The notes under the pieces: generated by a model | What the model was told of the DNA's origin: nothing | What the model saw: only the letters and a program-made list of their open reading frames with translations | Databases searched by the model: none | Position numbers and translations under genes: made by a program | NCBI GenBank assembly: GCA_032881465.1 | Contig: CP126168.1 | Span: 2,666,001-2,730,000 of the forward strand | Origin: Parvibaculaceae bacterium PLY_AMNH_Bact1 | GTDB lineage: Bacteria > Pseudomonadota > Alphaproteobacteria > Parvibaculales > Parvibaculaceae | Reading direction: 5' to 3' | Length of the DNA stretch: 64,000 nt | Shown here: positions 3,224 to 44,402 of the stretch, one piece after another | Position numbering within the stretch: the stretch's first letter is position 1 | Layout of the letters: each line of letters starts with the position of its first letter

Positions 3224-5131
3224 TCACGTACCCTGAGGTTCCGGGTCGATCCGGCCCACGCCACCACTTGTCGGCACGGAAGCTGTCGGGCCACCCGTAG
3301 GCTCTGGTGGCTCACCGCTATCACGATGCGGCTTTTCACCGACCAGAAGACCTTTGATCTCATCGCCGGAGAGCGTTTCAAACTCAAGCAACCCTTTGGC
3401 AATCTTGTGCAGATCATCAATATGCGTGGTCAGGACTTCATTGGCCTTTTTGTAGCCATCATCCACGATGCGCCGGACTTCCTCATCGATCATGCGTTGT
3501 GTTTCCTGAGACATGTTCTGCGAGCGCGCCACAGAGTGACCCAGGAAGACTTCTTCTTCATTGTCTTCATAGGCGAGCGGTCCAAGCTTGTCGCTCATAC
3601 CCCACTGGGTGACCATAGCCTTCGCCATCTTCGTCGCTTGAGAAATGTCAGATGACGCACCGGACGTAACCTTGTCGTGTCCGAGAATAATCTCTTCAGC
3701 GACACGGCCACCCATGGCAACCGCCAGGTCGGCATACATTTTTTCACGCGTCACCGAGAACTGATCAGCTTCCGGCAGGCGCATGACCATGCCAAGAGCC
3801 CGACCGCGGGGAATGATCGTCGCCTTATGGATCGGGTCAGAAGCTTCCATGTGAAGCGCCACCAAAGCATGCCCGCCTTCATGATAGGCAGTAAGGCTGC
3901 GTTCTTCCTCAGACTGGACCATGGAACGACGTTCCGCACCCATCATCACCTTGTCTTTGGCATCTTCAAACTCAGACATGGTCACCAGGCGGCGTCCGCG
4001 ACGCGCTGCAAGCAGCGCAGCCTCGTTCACAAGGTTCGCCAGATCAGCACCGGAGAAGCCAGGGGTGCCACGGGCAAGTGTCTTCACTTCCACATTGGGT
4101 CCAACAGGCACTTTCTTCATGTGCACTTTGAGGATTTTCTCGCGGCCAATAATGTCCGGGTTCGGCACCACAACCTGACGGTCGAAACGACCAGGACGCA
4201 ACAGAGCCGGGTCCAGAACGTCCGGACGGTTGGTCGCTGCGATCAGAATGATGCTCTCATTCGGCTCAAAGCCATCCATCTCCACCAGCAACTGGTTGAG
4301 TGTCTGCTCACGCTCATCATTACCACCGCCAAGACCGGCACCACGATGACGACCGACCGCATCAATCTCATCGATAAAGATGATGCAGGGAGAATTTTTC
4401 TTCGCCTGTTCGAACATGTCACGGACGCGGCTCGCACCGACACCGACAAACATTTCCACAAAATCAGAACCGGAAATCGTGAAGAACGGCACATTCGCTT
4501 CACCCGCAATGGCGCGTGCAAGCAATGTCTTACCGGTACCCGGAGGGCCCACCAGCAGCACACCCTTCGGGATGTGTCCACCAAGACGCTGGAATTTTGA
4601 CGGATCGCGCAGGAAGTCGACAATCTCTTCCAGATCGTCTTTGGCTTCATCAATGCCCGCAACATCGTCAAAGGTTACGCGGCCATGGCGCTCTGTCAGC
4701 AGTTTGGCTTTCGATTTACCAAAGCCCATGGCTTTGCCGCCACCGCCCTGCATTTGACGCATGAAGAAAATCCAGACGCCAATCAGAAGCAACATTGGGA
4801 ACCAGGACACCAAAATACCGAGCAGCGAGGGTGACCCGTCATCTGCTGGCTTCGCTGTTATTTCCACATTGCGTGCATTCAGGCGCTCAACCAGGTTCGG
4901 GTCACCTGGATTGTAGGTGTAGAAACTCTGACCGTCGGAATAGTGTCCAGAGATCGTGCTGCCAGACATGGTCACATCAACCACATTGCCCTTATCAACT
5001 TCATTCAGAAGTTGCGAGAAGCTGATCTCGTTGGTGGTGGTCCGTTCGACCGGGCTCTGGAACAGATTGAACAGCGCCACAAGCAAGAGCGCGACAACAG
5101 CCCACAGAGCGAAATTTTTAAAATTGGACAA
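3224..5131 (-). CDS. ftsH: ATP-dependent zinc metalloprotease FtsH
   Basis: FtsH is the inner-membrane AAA+ protease that removes damaged membrane proteins and short-lived cytosolic regulators. The 635 residues match the family length. There are two membrane segments (about 6-24 and 101-124) around a periplasmic domain, then AAA motifs: Walker A GPPGTGKT at 195-202, Walker B IIFIDEID, the second region of homology with LRPGRFDRQ, and the zinc motif HEGGH near 421. The C-terminus is Pro/Gly-rich. The start codon is TTG (complement of 5129-5131), supported by an AGGA site eight bases upstream and by the [10 protein letters not shown] beginning; no ATG fits better. It follows tilS on the same strand after about 300 bases, so it likely has its own promoter there. 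Confidence 0.97.
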
Positions 5132-38520: not shown

Positions 38521-39060
38521 TCAGTGCCGAGTTGGCCGACTGCCGAGCGCCTCCTGGAAAAAGGCTTCAGCCCTCTCCCGCTGTTCGGCCAGGCTCGAAT
38601 GGTCAATCTCTTCGCCCGCGCGCATCTGAGCATCCAAGCGATCAATCCGCCGGTAGATATTCTCTGAGCGCACAATCAGCTCCTTCAGAGCATCGGGAAG
38701 AAGGTCCGTGCCATTCAGCTTTTTCCCCCGCCCAAGCTCGCGACCACCAAGGGCATATTTATCAGACAGCGCGTCCGTTTCCGTCATATCGCCTTCATTG
38801 ACAGCCTTCTGAACCAACAACCACGCAGCAACCTGCATCAGCCGCGTTGTAAGCCGCATGCTCTCGGTGGCGTAGGCAAGTGCCGTGGCCCGCGGAAGAT
38901 CTTTCGCCTGATCCCGACCGGGACCATCCAGATAGGTCGCCGCCTCTTCCACAAGCGCCATGCCTTCACGATAGGTACGCTGAAAGAGCTGTGACCCGCC
39001 AAATGGCGACCGACCGTCTCCGTTTTCACCACCACCGCTTGTTTTGTTGCCGAAACTCAT
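38521..39060 (-). CDS. rcdA: CtrA-degradation adaptor RcdA (DUF1465)
   Basis: RcdA is the Caulobacter adaptor that, with CpdR and PopA, brings CtrA to ClpXP during the cell cycle. The 179 residues from the ATG at 39060 form the DUF1465 three-helix bundle: FQRTYREGMALVEEAATYLDGPGR near 25-48, AYATESMRLTTRLMQVAAWLLVQKAV near 60-85, and LKELIVRSENIYRRIDRLDAQM near 124-145, followed by a disordered tail. An upstream in-frame GTG at 39072 is less likely. The neighbourhood (rpmE, ABC exporter) matches that of rcdA in relatives. The assignment is by family and context. ctrA and clpXP are not in the window. Confidence 0.88.
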   Translation of the reverse strand: MSFGNKTSGGGENGDGRSPFGGSQLFQRTYREGMALVEEAATYLDGPGRDQAKDLPRATALAYATESMRLTTRLMQVAAWLLVQKAVNEGDMTETDALSDKYALGGRELGRGKKLNGTDLLPDALKELIVRSENIYRRIDRLDAQMRAGEEIDHSSLAEQRERAEAFFQEALGSRPTRH

Positions 39061-39182
39061 AAGACCACTCACTGTTAATCATGTTACCGGCGCCCATGAG
39101 CAAGCAGACACCAGCGTGTAGCCAGCGACCGTACCAACCAAGGACGCGTTGCGCTTCAACTATCAACAAGCGTGCCATTCCG

Positions 39183-39552: not shown

Positions 39553-39750
39553 TCATTTTCGAAAAATTGCCTCTGCTTCGCTCAAACTGCCCTGCTTTGA
39601 GGCGACCATGGCCTTCGAACGCGCAATTTCGTCCGTAAGCAAAGTGATTCGTTCTTTGAGCTCATCGACACCCAACAGCGAAATGTCCTCTTTCGCCAGC
39701 GCCTGAAGGCTGTCAGGCACCCGTTTGGGTTCTAGGTCTTCTGAGTCCAT
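39553..39750 (-). CDS. DUF1192 family small protein
   Basis: A 65-residue protein, MDSEDLEPKRVP at the start, LGVDELKERITLLTDEIARSK in the middle and SLSEAEAIFRK at the end. I recognise it as DUF1192, a short helical family of alphaproteobacteria with no known function. GGGAG lies seven bases before the ATG at 39750, so the longer open frame to 39846 is rejected. It is on the same strand as the MarR gene about 100 bases upstream, and is more likely a core gene with its own promoter than part of the MarR system. Confidence 0.85.
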   Translation of the reverse strand: MDSEDLEPKRVPDSLQALAKEDISLLGVDELKERITLLTDEIARSKAMVASKQGSLSEAEAIFRK

Positions 39751-39854
39751 TAGTCGCTCCCGTCTTTGCCCTGAAAGTCGGTACAGCTTATACAACGCGC
39801 TTATTTGCAGAGAACAAAAATTCAGAGCGGCACCAGCAAAGGACATTCACTCAC

Positions 39855-40316
39855 TTATGTCGGTTCAATCCGCAATACCGTCTCTTCGATTTGGTCCAGG
39901 GTGGACATCAGGCGGTTCAATTCCACGGCAGAATATTCTGTTGCCAGTTCATCCAACATTTCCAGCCGCATCTCCGCCGCTCGCTCGTACAATCGACGCC
40001 CCTTGGGCGTGAGTTCCAAAATCTTGCTACGACCATCATCCGGACTAGCCGTCAATCGCGTGAGACCACTAGACGTCAGCTCTTTTGAGAGCCGTTGAAC
40101 ACCTTGGCGAGACACAGGTCTCATCCGCGCGATATCAGAAACCGTCGCGGGCCCAAGATCGTAAAGTGTCCGAAGCACGCCCATACGACTTCCTGTCAGC
40201 CCAAATGGTTTGAGGGCCAAATCCATCTGTGCGGAGAGCTTAAAATAGACGCTCGTCACCTTGAGAAAAATCTGACTAAGATCAGCGCCATTCGCCTTCT
40301 CACCCTTCGATGTCAT
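39855..40316 (-). CDS. MarR-family transcriptional regulator
   Basis: A 153-residue winged-helix regulator. The DNA-binding part is LTGSRMGVLRTLYDLGPATV, SDIARMRPVSRQGVQRLSKELTSSGL and the wing RLTASPDDGRSKILELTPKG; the outer helices form the dimer interface. AGGAG lies nine bases before the ATG at 40316 (an in-frame ATG at 40343 lacks a site). It follows the methyltransferase gene after 31 bases on the same strand. The mirrored CAACATGTTG operator upstream of that gene is its probable target, which would give control over both divergent arms. The ligand is unknown. Confidence 0.9.
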   Translation of the reverse strand: MTSKGEKANGADLSQIFLKVTSVYFKLSAQMDLALKPFGLTGSRMGVLRTLYDLGPATVSDIARMRPVSRQGVQRLSKELTSSGLTRLTASPDDGRSKILELTPKGRRLYERAAEMRLEMLDELATEYSAVELNRLMSTLDQIEETVLRIEPT

Positions 40317-40347
40317 TCTCAATTGCTCCTGCAGATCCCACACAGCG

Positions 40348-40968
40348 TCAGATTTTGGCGTGAATACCGAACGAGCCCGACCCTATTCGGCAGGCTTCTA
40401 TGACACGAAATCCGGCGCCCTCCAAGGCACTCAGCGTCCCCTGAATTTCGTTTCCAGATTTCGCAATCGGGTTTGGCAACCAGTCAAGCGCGCCAGCGCC
40501 GCCGCCATGCAAGCGTAATATGAGTACGAAGCTACCTGCTTCTCTCAGCAGTTCCTTTATCTGCCGAAGTCTTTCCTCTGGGTGTGGCCAGAACTGAAAT
40601 GAATGGACTGCCAGGACGGCATCAAAGCTACGGGGCAGCCAAACCAAGTCACTGTCATCTCCTTTGCGGACGTCCAGGGAGCAGACATCCGCAAATTCCA
40701 CCAGCCGCTGCTCAGCCATTTCGACCATTAGTTCTGAGGGGTCGACCCCACAGAACCGCTGGCATCCCAACTCACGAACAAGAAGTTGCCCCAAACGGCC
40801 AGTACCAAAGCCAATCTCCAACACAGAACCAGGCGCTTCCTCCCGCAATCGATCACACGCCCATCGATAGGTACGGTTGTTCATTCTTTCCATGATCGCG
40901 GCAAACATTCGCCCCGCCATGCCGTGCGGCCGCATCGCTTGATGCATCGATTCTTCCTCAGCGCTCAT
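40348..40968 (-). CDS. class I SAM-dependent methyltransferase
   Basis: A 206-residue methyltransferase of the Methyltransf_11 type. The SAM motif is VLEIGFGTGRLGQLLVRELG near 50-69, the acidic loop CGVDPSELMVEMAEQRL near 72-88, and motif IV is FDAVLAVHSFQFWPHPEERL near 115-134. The frame opens at 40998, but that ATG lies inside the operator palindrome; GGAG six bases before the ATG at 40968 marks the real start. It is the first gene of the MarR unit, divergent from an MFS transporter. A role in modifying a small molecule is possible; substrate unknown. Confidence 0.88.
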   Translation of the reverse strand: MSAEEESMHQAMRPHGMAGRMFAAIMERMNNRTYRWACDRLREEAPGSVLEIGFGTGRLGQLLVRELGCQRFCGVDPSELMVEMAEQRLVEFADVCSLDVRKGDDSDLVWLPRSFDAVLAVHSFQFWPHPEERLRQIKELLREAGSFVLILRLHGGGAGALDWLPNPIAKSGNEIQGTLSALEGAGFRVIEACRIGSGSFGIHAKI

Positions 40969-40991
40969 GTCATTCTCCAATTCATATATAC

Positions 40992-41040
40992 GCAACATGT
41001 TGACATTTAGAAAGCGGTTCTTATTTTGTCAACATGTTGC
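40992..41040. promoter_or_regulatory. mirrored MarR operator pair
   Basis: GCAACATGTTGAC (40992-41004) and GTCAACATGTTGC (41028-41040) are exact reverse complements, each with the 10-base palindrome CAACATGTTG, separated by 23 bases. They lie exactly between divergent transcription units, one of which encodes a MarR regulator. Each copy contains an ATG that creates a false in-frame start for the gene it faces. Confidence 0.88.
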
Positions 41041-41066
41041 GCATTAATTCATCGAAAGAATACATC

Positions 41067-42257
41067 ATGACGAGATCGGAATGGAGCCTCATCGCGCTGC
41101 TGGGAACTGCATTTCTAATAAGCCGGTATGATTTCGCCCTAATGAGCCTCGCCTTGCCTGACATCCAAAGGGACCTCGGCATTGCAGAGCAGGAACTGGG
41201 ACAGTTTGTCGGCTATACGCGACTTGGCGCTCTCGCCGCATTGCCTCTGGCGCTTCTCGCAGATTTTGCCGGAAGACGCAGATTGCTGATGGCAACGATC
41301 GCAGGGTTCACCGCCTGTACGATCGGAACCGCCTTCGCTCAGACGCCAGAGCAATTCATTCTTCTTCAAACCATCGCGCGCGCATTCACATCCGCTGATG
41401 AAATTCTTTCAGCAATTATGATCCTTGAGATGGTCGCGACAGCGCGCCGTGGCATAGCCATTGGCATTTTAGCAGCATTTGGCGGGCTTGGTGATGGTTT
41501 GGCGTCCGCCGCCTACCCTCTCTCAACCTATTTTGAAGATGGCTGGCGAACGCTTTACCTACTGGCCGCGATACCCATTCTACCGCTGATCTATGCACGT
41601 AGGTTCCTGAAAGAGTCGGTCAAGTTCGCCGCTGCGCAATCAACAGGCCTGAACATATTCAGCGCAGCAAAACAAATGCTGCGGGACAAAAAGAGAATGG
41701 TCGCCGTGGTTGCTTTGGCAATCACTTACCACCTGCCCATCTCGGCTGGCCTCGCCTTCATGTCGAAGTATTTGCAGGAAAGTTGCAGCTATTCCTCTGG
41801 CAATGTCGCGTTGTTGTTTTTAATCGGCGGATCAGTTGCCCTCACCGGCAATCTGCTAGGCGGGTATTTGACAGATAAGATCGGCCGCCGAATTGGTTTC
41901 GCGTTCTTCTCAATCATTCTATGCGCAGGCTTTCACGGTTTCTATGGCGCTAGTTGCCAAATCGCTCCTTATGCATGGGTCGTCGCACTGACAGGTGTGT
42001 TTGCAACACACGCAATCTTCCTGACCATCACCGGAGAACTCTTTCCGACCATTGGGCGGGTGACAGTGTCAGCAATATGCCAGGCCTTTGCGGCAATAGC
42101 TTTGGTAGCAGGCCTCTTTCTTGAATCACAACTCTACACACTGCTGGGCTCCCACGCCGCCGCCATCACCTTTCTCCTCCCATCATTCCTCATCGCAGCG
42201 TTCATCGCCCTGACGATGGTTCCTGAGACAGGCTCTAAAGAACTAACTGAAATCTAG
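41067..42257 (+). CDS. MFS transporter
   Basis: A 396-residue major facilitator protein with about twelve membrane helices. The loop 2-3 signature is ALLADFAGRRRLLMA near 75-89 and its second-half counterpart is GGYLTDKIGRRIGFAF near 272-287. It resembles sugar/aromatic-acid porters more than drug efflux pumps, but this cannot be settled by eye. The frame opens at 41034 inside the operator; the ATG at 41067 starts the first helix properly (TRSEWSLIALLGTAFLISRY). The FAD monooxygenase follows after ten bases. Control by the divergent MarR is likely. Confidence 0.88.
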   Translation: MTRSEWSLIALLGTAFLISRYDFALMSLALPDIQRDLGIAEQELGQFVGYTRLGALAALPLALLADFAGRRRLLMATIAGFTACTIGTAFAQTPEQFILLQTIARAFTSADEILSAIMILEMVATARRGIAIGILAAFGGLGDGLASAAYPLSTYFEDGWRTLYLLAAIPILPLIYARRFLKESVKFAAAQSTGLNIFSAAKQMLRDKKRMVAVVALAITYHLPISAGLAFMSKYLQESCSYSSGNVALLFLIGGSVALTGNLLGGYLTDKIGRRIGFAFFSIILCAGFHGFYGASCQIAPYAWVVALTGVFATHAIFLTITGELFPTIGRVTVSAICQAFAAIALVAGLFLESQLYTLLGSHAAAITFLLPSFLIAAFIALTMVPETGSKELTEI

Positions 42258-42267
42258 CAGGAAGCTT

Positions 42268-43314
42268 ATGAACAACATGCTCGACGTTTTAATTATCGGT
42301 GCCGGTCAGGCGGGTTTGGCAATGGGTGCGGAGCTCAAAGCACAAGGCTTGAAAAACTTCCTTATTTTGGATGAGACGAGCCATGTGGGTCAATCATGGG
42401 AGGACCGCTACAACTCTCTGAAACTCTTTACGCCCAGCCAGTATTGCAATCTGCCTGGTATGAAGTTTCCATTAGGCCGCAACCGCTACCCAAACAAAGA
42501 TCAGGTCGCAGACTATCTGAGGAGCTATGCCGTTCAATTCTCTCTCCCCATTCAAATGAATACAGCGGTCAATCGCCTGGAAAAGGCGCCTGGGTCTTTT
42601 GTCATCGAAACCTCTCAGGGAAAACTGTGGGCTGACAAAGTCATCATCGCAACGGGATCACAACACACACCTTGGGTACCGAACTTCGCCGCGCAGCTGT
42701 CGGACAATATCTTTCAGATCCATAGTGCGCAGTATCAATGCCCTAGTCAGATCCCAGAGGGTCCAGTGCTGATGGTCGGCGCTGGCAACTCCGGTGTGCA
42801 GATCGCAGAGGAGCTTACCGCCACACACTCCGTGCACATATCAGTGGCTCATCTACCCAAACAGTTTCCGCAGCGTTTTTTGGGAAAAGACATTTTCTGG
42901 TACTTACTAAAGCTCGGCTATATGGACGTCCCTGTCGCAAAACGAAGCGATGAAGGCCAACCCATGCCACTCATTGGCAGTGACTTAAAACGACTGATGA
43001 GGAAAAAGAGGCTCATCAAGCACGCCAGAGCCGTCGGAGCGGACGGTGACAAAGTCATATTAGCGGATGGAACAAGCTTTGCGCCACAATCAATCATCTG
43101 GGCAACAGGGTTTCGCAATGACTATGCTTGGATCGACATTCCCGGCACCCACAAAGATGGCCTGCCCATCCAGACAGATGGCTGCTCGCCAGTGGGAGGC
43201 CTCTACTGGATAGGGTTCTCTTGGCTGCGGACCAAAGGCTCGGGATTTCTGGGTTTTGTGGGGCGTGATGCGGCACATCTCGCTCCGGACATCCTCAAGC
43301 CGGAGGATCAGTGA
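42268..43314 (+). CDS. flavin-containing monooxygenase-like (CzcO/YUCCA type)
   Basis: A 348-residue FAD/NADPH oxidoreductase. The FAD motif is LIIGAGQAGLAMGAEL at 8-23, followed by VGQSWEDRYNSLKLFTPSQYCNLPG near 41-65 as in CzcO/YUCCA proteins. The NADPH motif is MVGAGNSGVQIAEEL near 168-182 and the late GxGxxG-linked ATGF motif is WATGFRND near 276-283. Such enzymes oxygenate nitrogen, sulfur or carbonyl groups. It lies between the MFS gene and a quinone oxidoreductase, suggesting an inducible uptake/oxidation or detoxification unit. Substrate unknown. Confidence 0.87.
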   Translation: MNNMLDVLIIGAGQAGLAMGAELKAQGLKNFLILDETSHVGQSWEDRYNSLKLFTPSQYCNLPGMKFPLGRNRYPNKDQVADYLRSYAVQFSLPIQMNTAVNRLEKAPGSFVIETSQGKLWADKVIIATGSQHTPWVPNFAAQLSDNIFQIHSAQYQCPSQIPEGPVLMVGAGNSGVQIAEELTATHSVHISVAHLPKQFPQRFLGKDIFWYLLKLGYMDVPVAKRSDEGQPMPLIGSDLKRLMRKKRLIKHARAVGADGDKVILADGTSFAPQSIIWATGFRNDYAWIDIPGTHKDGLPIQTDGCSPVGGLYWIGFSWLRTKGSGFLGFVGRDAAHLAPDILKPEDQ

Positions 43315-43403
43315 GGACCAGCATTAAAAAGTTTACTGGCTGAAGCACGACACATGGCTATGTTTCCTACAACAAAGAACCCATAGCCAAGGACGTGCAC
43401 CTT

Positions 43404-44402
43404 ATGCCTAATCTCCCCGAGACAATGACCGCCATCAAAATCCCCGAACCCGGCGGACCCGAAGTACTGACGCCTACTGAAGTGCCCCTGCCTCAACCCG
43501 GACATGGGGAAATTCTGGTACGCGTCGCAGCAGCCGGTGTGAACCGTGGAGACCTGGTGCAACGCATTGGGCTTTATCCCGCCCCCAAAGGGGTTACCGA
43601 CACGCCGGGGCTTGAATTTGCAGGCGAGGTTGTTGCCCTTGGAACAGGAGCCTCACGTTGGGCGGTCGGCGACAATGTATGTGCCCTTGTCGCCGGTGGG
43701 GGCTACGCCGAATATGCCATCGTTCACGAAAGCCATGCTCTGCCAATTCCAGAGGGCTACTCCATGGTGGAAGCCGCTGCCCTGCCAGAAACCATCATGA
43801 CGGTCTGGACCAATGTCTTTGATCGCGGCAGATTGCAACCCGGCGAAACACTTCTCATCCATGGCGGCACAAGCGGCATTGGCACCACCGCAATTCAGAT
43901 GGCTGTCGCCTGGGGCGCCAAAGTCTTTGCGACTGCCGGGTCAGACGAAAAAGCCCGAAAGTGTGAGGACCTGGGCGCACGGCGCGGCATCAATTACCGA
44001 GAAGAAGATTTCGTCATGGTGATGGATGAAGCGACCAGTGGACAGGGCGCCGACGTCATCTTTGACATGGTGGGCGGCGACTATATCCAGCGCAACATTA
44101 CCTGCGCGGCGCGTGGTGGCCGGATCGTCAACATCGCCTATCAGCAGGGTTCCGTCGCTGAGGTGAACTTTCTGCCCCTGATGCTGAAACAGGTGACGCT
44201 GACCGGCTCCACCTTGCGCGCCCGGCCTCTGGAGGAGAAAACCGCCCTCACTGAAACCGTGCTGAAGGAAGTCTGGCCCTGGATCGCAGCTGGCCGCCTC
44301 AAGCCCATCGTCGACAGCACATTCCCGCTCCGAGACGCAAAAGCTGCCCACGAACGCATGGAAAAGGGCGGCCATATCGGAAAAATCATCCTGACCGTCT
44401 AA
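43404..44402 (+). CDS. zinc-free NAD(P)H quinone oxidoreductase (PIG3 type)
   Basis: A 332-residue medium-chain dehydrogenase/reductase. It begins MPNLPETMTAIKIPEPGGPEVL and has VNRGDLVQRIGLYPAPKG, PGLEFAGEVVALGTG, the NADPH motif LLIHGGTSGIGTTAIQMA near 148-165 and the TLRARPLEEK segment, all typical of the PIG3/TIGR02824 quinone oxidoreductases. The catalytic zinc Cys residues of alcohol dehydrogenases are missing. AAGGA lies ten bases before the ATG at 43404; the in-frame GTG at 43395 is less likely. It stands 89 bases after the flavoprotein and may or may not share its control. Confidence 0.9.
   Translation: MPNLPETMTAIKIPEPGGPEVLTPTEVPLPQPGHGEILVRVAAAGVNRGDLVQRIGLYPAPKGVTDTPGLEFAGEVVALGTGASRWAVGDNVCALVAGGGYAEYAIVHESHALPIPEGYSMVEAAALPETIMTVWTNVFDRGRLQPGETLLIHGGTSGIGTTAIQMAVAWGAKVFATAGSDEKARKCEDLGARRGINYREEDFVMVMDEATSGQGADVIFDMVGGDYIQRNITCAARGGRIVNIAYQQGSVAEVNFLPLMLKQVTLTGSTLRARPLEEKTALTETVLKEVWPWIAAGRLKPIVDSTFPLRDAKAAHERMEKGGHIGKIILTV

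Follow-up and report, generated by a model that had tools for sequence, protein, structure and literature searches.

Paired inverted palindromes at the centre of a MarR cassette in Parvibaculaceae bacterium PLY_AMNH_Bact1: a predicted double operator carrying start codons on both strands

The locus described here lies in a window of 64,000 nt, i.e. the whole stretch of DNA that was analysed, covering positions 2,666,001 to 2,730,000 of the forward strand of contig CP126168.1 in the assembly of Parvibaculaceae bacterium PLY_AMNH_Bact1 (GCA_032881465.1). Within this window, four genes form a cassette of two divergent units (Table 1), of which the leftward one begins with a class I methyltransferase gene, directly followed by the gene of a MarR-family regulator, and the rightward one consists of an MFS transporter gene and the gene of a flavin-containing monooxygenase-like protein, with a pair of exactly inverted palindromes standing between the two units. 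The MarR protein scores above the curated cut-offs of PF12802 (43.3 bits, cut-off 27) and PF01047 (31.6 bits, cut-off 24.6), and it reaches the cut-off of none of the NCBIfam equivalogs (HpaR, SlyA, TcaR and others), the best of them being HpaR at 34.4 bits with a cut-off of 121.2. The monooxygenase-like product stays below the ArsO cut-off (NF040505, 178.2 bits vs. 425). It also scores 235 bits with the MSMEG_0569 model, far below that model's cut-off of 498.

Table 1. Features of the cassette and its central repeat (window positions), with the paired palindromes of two further loci (positions within those loci)
Feature	Position	Strand	Remarks
Whole cassette	39751..43424	.	~3.65 kb, four genes: MarR, methyltransferase, MFS, flavin monooxygenase
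MarR-family regulator	39855..40316	-	likely start ATG 40316; longest frame from GTG 40343
Class I methyltransferase	40348..40968	-	likely start ATG 40968 = Met11 of longest frame
Upstream extension of methyltransferase frame, 10 codons	40969..40998	-	probably untranslated; opened by operator ATG
Operator copy 1 (predicted)	40991..41005	.	CGCAACATGTTGACA; core 40993-41002
Operator copy 2 (predicted)	41027..41041	.	TGTCAACATGTTGCG, exact reverse complement of copy 1; core 41030-41039
Putative rightward promoter	41000..41027	+	TTGACA-N16-TATTTT; 10/12 consensus match only; predicted +1 41034, inside copy 2
Putative leftward promoter	41004..41032	-	perfect TTGACA 41032-41027, -10 poor (3-4/6); predicted +1 40997-40999, inside copy 1
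MFS transporter	41067..42257	+	from Met12; alternative start = operator ATG 41034
Flavin-containing monooxygenase-like protein	42268..43314	+	second gene of rightward unit
L080 paired palindromes	4953-4997		TAGACAAT...ATTGTCTA; methyltransferase/MarR junction
L081 paired palindromes	4580-4621		TAGACAAT...ATTGTCTA; methyltransferase/MarR junction

The cassette is flanked by the RcdA gene (38521-39072) on one side and the gene of a PIG3-family quinone oxidoreductase (43395-44402) on the other, and its site was empty in all six congeners examined, in which these outer genes are 758-908 bp apart, vs. 4322 bp here. For four congeners (L084-L087), homology on the left reaches its limit at 39750-39761; for the more distant L088 and L089 it stops earlier, and for all six it restarts on the right at 43410-43425. 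The G+C content of 1-kb windows is 0.51-0.54 within the cassette vs. 0.56-0.60 in most flanking windows, the MarR gene was present in one of the 40 family genomes searched, namely its own, and all matches in a plasmid search were below 60% identity. Most simply, the switch and its genes are a cassette gained by horizontal transfer, with its loss from all six congeners as the less likely alternative. A search with the full 15-mer pattern of the repeat gave a match in the window's own genome only, out of seven genomes of the genus with this one counted, and the exact site is not conserved in the genus because the cassette is not.

Direct reading and an exact 15-mer match agree that both copies of the repeat are exact across 15 bp; the first-pass annotation, which had described two 13-base exact inverted copies, was right about the inversion and wrong about the length. 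Each arm is palindromic by itself, the loop between the arms is 21 nt, and the two CAACATGTTG cores are 37 bp apart from centre to centre. The 64-kb window contains no other pair of this kind (exact 15-bp inverted copies separated by no more than 60 bp), and no such pair arose in 40 first-order Markov simulations of that sequence. The core alone is unremarkable, with two window matches when one mismatch is allowed vs. 2.4 expected, and the noteworthy feature is the exact, paired and inverted arrangement, not CAACATGTTG by itself. Genome-wide, the core occurs 15 times, vs. once for a backward-read control, and the remaining 13 cores all lie within open frames of 149 aa or more, so that the window pair alone looks intergenic. 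A genome-wide regulon built on the exact core was rejected for the same reason. Arms of 15 bp could pair with each other, and the repeat might then act as an RNA or DNA hairpin, e.g. an attenuator or a terminator, instead of an operator; we consider this extremely unlikely, as each arm is itself palindromic, the copies straddle the promoter region with the 21-nt loop between them, and a hairpin or terminator function was rejected in that no terminator-like site was found.

Regulators of the MarR family are described as binding palindromes of 16-20 bp that overlap promoter elements (PMC7432914, PMC10458429), and the sequence of the repeat, together with the phylogenetic footprint presented below, suggests an operator of this kind. 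Copy 1 has at its inner flank the perfect TTGACA that would serve as the -35 of a putative rightward promoter, and copy 2 has at its own inner flank the TTGACA of a putative leftward one, the predicted start point of each lying in the opposite copy (Table 1), with an accuracy of a base or two at best for such predictions. Either copy of the operator would consequently extend over one promoter at its -35 and over the opposing promoter at its start point. A consensus scan found one site, the rightward promoter, vs. a mean of 0.6 in shuffles, which is weak evidence alone, and it missed the leftward promoter.

The best homologue of the MarR protein in the genome contigs searched (38% identity) is found in Aliikangiella coralliicola, which we take to belong to another class. 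At its locus (L005), as in the window, there are two CAACATGTTG cores; they stand 38 bp apart and immediately precede the MarR gene. The locus differs from the window in the neighbouring genes, which are unrelated to those of the window cassette, with no match to the window methyltransferase, MFS transporter or monooxygenase in that neighbourhood. The MarR proteins of both organisms have the recognition-helix stretch SRQ.VQRLS in common, where they are nearly the same. When the pair was sought as CAACATGTTG-N15-40-CAACATGTTG, a phylum sample of 398 genomes contained it once, in the window's own genome, and an order sample of 247 genomes around Aliikangiella contained it once, in the Aliikangiella genome itself. 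At L005 the leftward promoter match is 10/12, with its -35 over copy 2, and the rightward one has a poor -10. The locus also departs from the window in that copy 2 has its ATG at 3957, 29 nt from the marR start at 3986 and in another frame, so that the ATG is kept there without a start-codon role.

Related palindromes occur upstream of other MarR homologues. We scored 36 loci (L005-L008, L044-L072 and L080-L082); of 44 profile matches, 30 had been taken up as loci, namely the window's own and 29 others, and the matches in genomes G789 and G762 (C5) were added as L081 and L082. A palindrome matching TTGACANNATNNTGTCAA at 11/14 positions or better was found in the 200 bp ahead of the matched gene's start at 18 of the 36 loci and in none of the 36 equal control stretches at the gene end, where the consensus is derived partly from the same loci that were then scored, and where the near identity of L057-L059, from one genus, means that 18/36 overstates the number of independent events. 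The other 18 loci fall below the cut-off, and among them are most of the homologues that, Aliikangiella apart, are nearest to the window protein; L006-L008, which match the MarR query weakly, have no related palindrome. At four loci (L045, L050, L055, L060), tandem operator-like palindromes stand ~19 bp apart upstream of the MarR gene, i.e. at half of the 37-38 bp spacing in the window and L005. The partnership with a methyltransferase recurs in two other genomes (L080, L081), in which a methyltransferase gene is divergent from the MarR gene and paired palindromes lie at the junction (Table 1), their letters being different and below the 11/14 cut-off. A search with the window MarR protein among the 398 phylum genomes recovered only itself at E <= 1e-14, and a two-sequence profile (A1), half of whose weight is the Aliikangiella protein, gave matches in 42 of 385 genomes. 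Searching the literature for the core as letters returned no MarR title among the matches listed, several of which were about p53, and no account of the operator type was found among titles and the opening parts of abstracts.

Taken together, the Aliikangiella pair, the count of 18 vs. 0 among 36 loci and the junctions of L080 and L081 lend strong comparative support to the MarR operator that the first-pass annotation had read from the letters. The window copies themselves match the clade consensus TTGACANNATNNTGTCAA at 9/14 and 10/14 positions (hand count), under the cut-off used elsewhere, which would suit a regulator other than the neighbouring MarR, e.g. one encoded elsewhere. We judge such a regulator quite improbable, given that the core pair recurs beside a homologue of the same MarR amid different neighbours in Aliikangiella, that the other 39 family genomes searched are missing the MarR gene, and that the core looks intergenic at the window pair only.

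The inverted pair is thus very probably a double operator of the MarR-family repressor encoded in the cassette itself. In the mechanism that we infer from these comparisons, one MarR dimer would probably sit on each CAACATGTTG-centred palindrome, covering both the -35 box that the inner-flank TTGACA supplies to a promoter directed across the other copy and the start point of the promoter opposite. Two bound dimers would then silence the leftward methyltransferase-marR unit, amounting to autorepression, as well as the rightward MFS-monooxygenase unit, until a ligand releases the repressor; this would probably be some toxic or aromatic compound handled by the cassette. The start codons within the operator would be a by-product of its letters.

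These start codons bear directly on how the neighbouring genes are annotated. As the first-pass annotation had noticed, the ATG of each copy opens the longest frame of its neighbour, that of the methyltransferase at 40998 on the minus strand in copy 1 (MLRIYELENDMSAEEES...) and that of the MFS transporter at 41034 on the plus strand in copy 2 (MLRINSSKEYIMTRSEW...). For the methyltransferase, the further proposal of a false start with a good ribosome site downstream is supported, since Met11 (40968) is preceded by GGAG 6 nt upstream (duplex -6.4 kcal/mol) and the operator ATG has no ribosome site (+1.0). In a profile-type search, the four methyltransferase homologues (G687, G883, G762 and G789, i.e. 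L078-L081) matched from query residues 12, 28, 13 and 20, and the best of the homologues (44% identical) matches residues 12-214 in a stop-to-stop frame of only 207 aa, too short to hold the N-terminal extension as well. When the longest frames were compared by blastp, the first aligned residues were 13, 29, 4 and 1, and the two alignments named last span the longest-frame leaders of L080 and L081; the leader alignment there (LEN) is close to a putative ribosome site, which makes the methyltransferase boundary less sharp. The sequence evidence supports Met11 as the methyltransferase start and the operator ATG as a false one. The MarR gene likewise has a likely better start at ATG 40316, with AGGAG upstream (-6.3), than at the longest-frame GTG 40343, which has no ribosome site (+0.7).

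The MFS start may be either Met12 or the operator ATG. At Met12 (41067) a good ribosome site is lacking (+0.1). The operator ATG has a duplex of -2.7, but the letters that form it would precede the predicted +1. Six MFS homologues (at most 39% identity) carry residues ahead of the position equivalent to Met12, their own starts being uncertain. The operator ATG could thus be a genuine start, with a leaderless mRNA for the MFS transporter and perhaps for the methyltransferase too, an arrangement compatible with a MarR operator. We think this unlikely, although the predicted rightward +1 at 41034 is the A of the operator ATG (to within the base or two of such predictions), the MFS homologues have several residues ahead of Met12, leaderless messages are common in one alphaproteobacterium, Caulobacter, with 375 mRNAs, or 9.6% of its CDSs (PMC4117421), and the MarR-type crtR of Corynebacterium is reported to be leaderless (PMC5401885). 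The same Caulobacter account gives ribosome sites at only 24.6% of starts (PMC4117421), so the missing site at Met12 weighs little, and leaderless starts also sit poorly with the good ribosome site at methyltransferase Met11, about where its homologues start, and with the out-of-frame ATG that Aliikangiella retains in copy 2. It is similarly doubtful that a single 10-bp palindrome would bind the repressor and also provide at least the MFS gene with both its transcription start and its initiation codon, in mirror image on the two strands. The idea of false starts on both strands accordingly holds for the methyltransferase, the MFS transporter being left between its two candidates. The related warning, that automatic calling would misplace the starts on both strands, applies only to callers that choose the longest frame; those that take ribosome sites into account would probably find the right methyltransferase start.

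Among the 18 operator-bearing homologue loci, eight have a start codon inside the operator and in frame with the MarR gene, which is an ATG in four of them (three being near duplicates). Such openings therefore seem to be a common by-product of operators of this type, and the hazard to start calls would be general for genes autoregulated in this way. At L080, the longest methyltransferase frame is also opened by an ATG within its own operator, as a second instance of the same trap.

The predicted switch is an ordinary MarR autoregulatory one, and what is new lies in the detail of the cassette and of an operator type for MarR relatives. The analysis offers a predicted operator type, with GACAA/TTGTC-like half palindromes, for relatives of a protein that no NCBIfam equivalog claims, associates this MarR with a methyltransferase across further genomes, and provides a concrete case of operator letters that create start codons. 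Among known systems, CrtR-crtE of Corynebacterium glutamicum resembles the window in its MarR-type autorepressor, its divergent units and a site that lies over promoter elements (PMC5401885, PMC7432914), and the reported leaderless crtR transcript (PMC5401885) parallels the possibility considered above for the MFS gene; it differs, as described in these sources, in its central TTAA site, in a second motif whose mutation had no effect, and in its carotenoid genes (PMC5401885, PMC7432914). The pecS-pecM system is similar in pairing a MarR-family regulator of the PecS type with a divergent transport or efflux gene (PMC6391409), whereas in the window the MarR gene comes second in its unit, behind the methyltransferase, and the likeness is one of gene layout.
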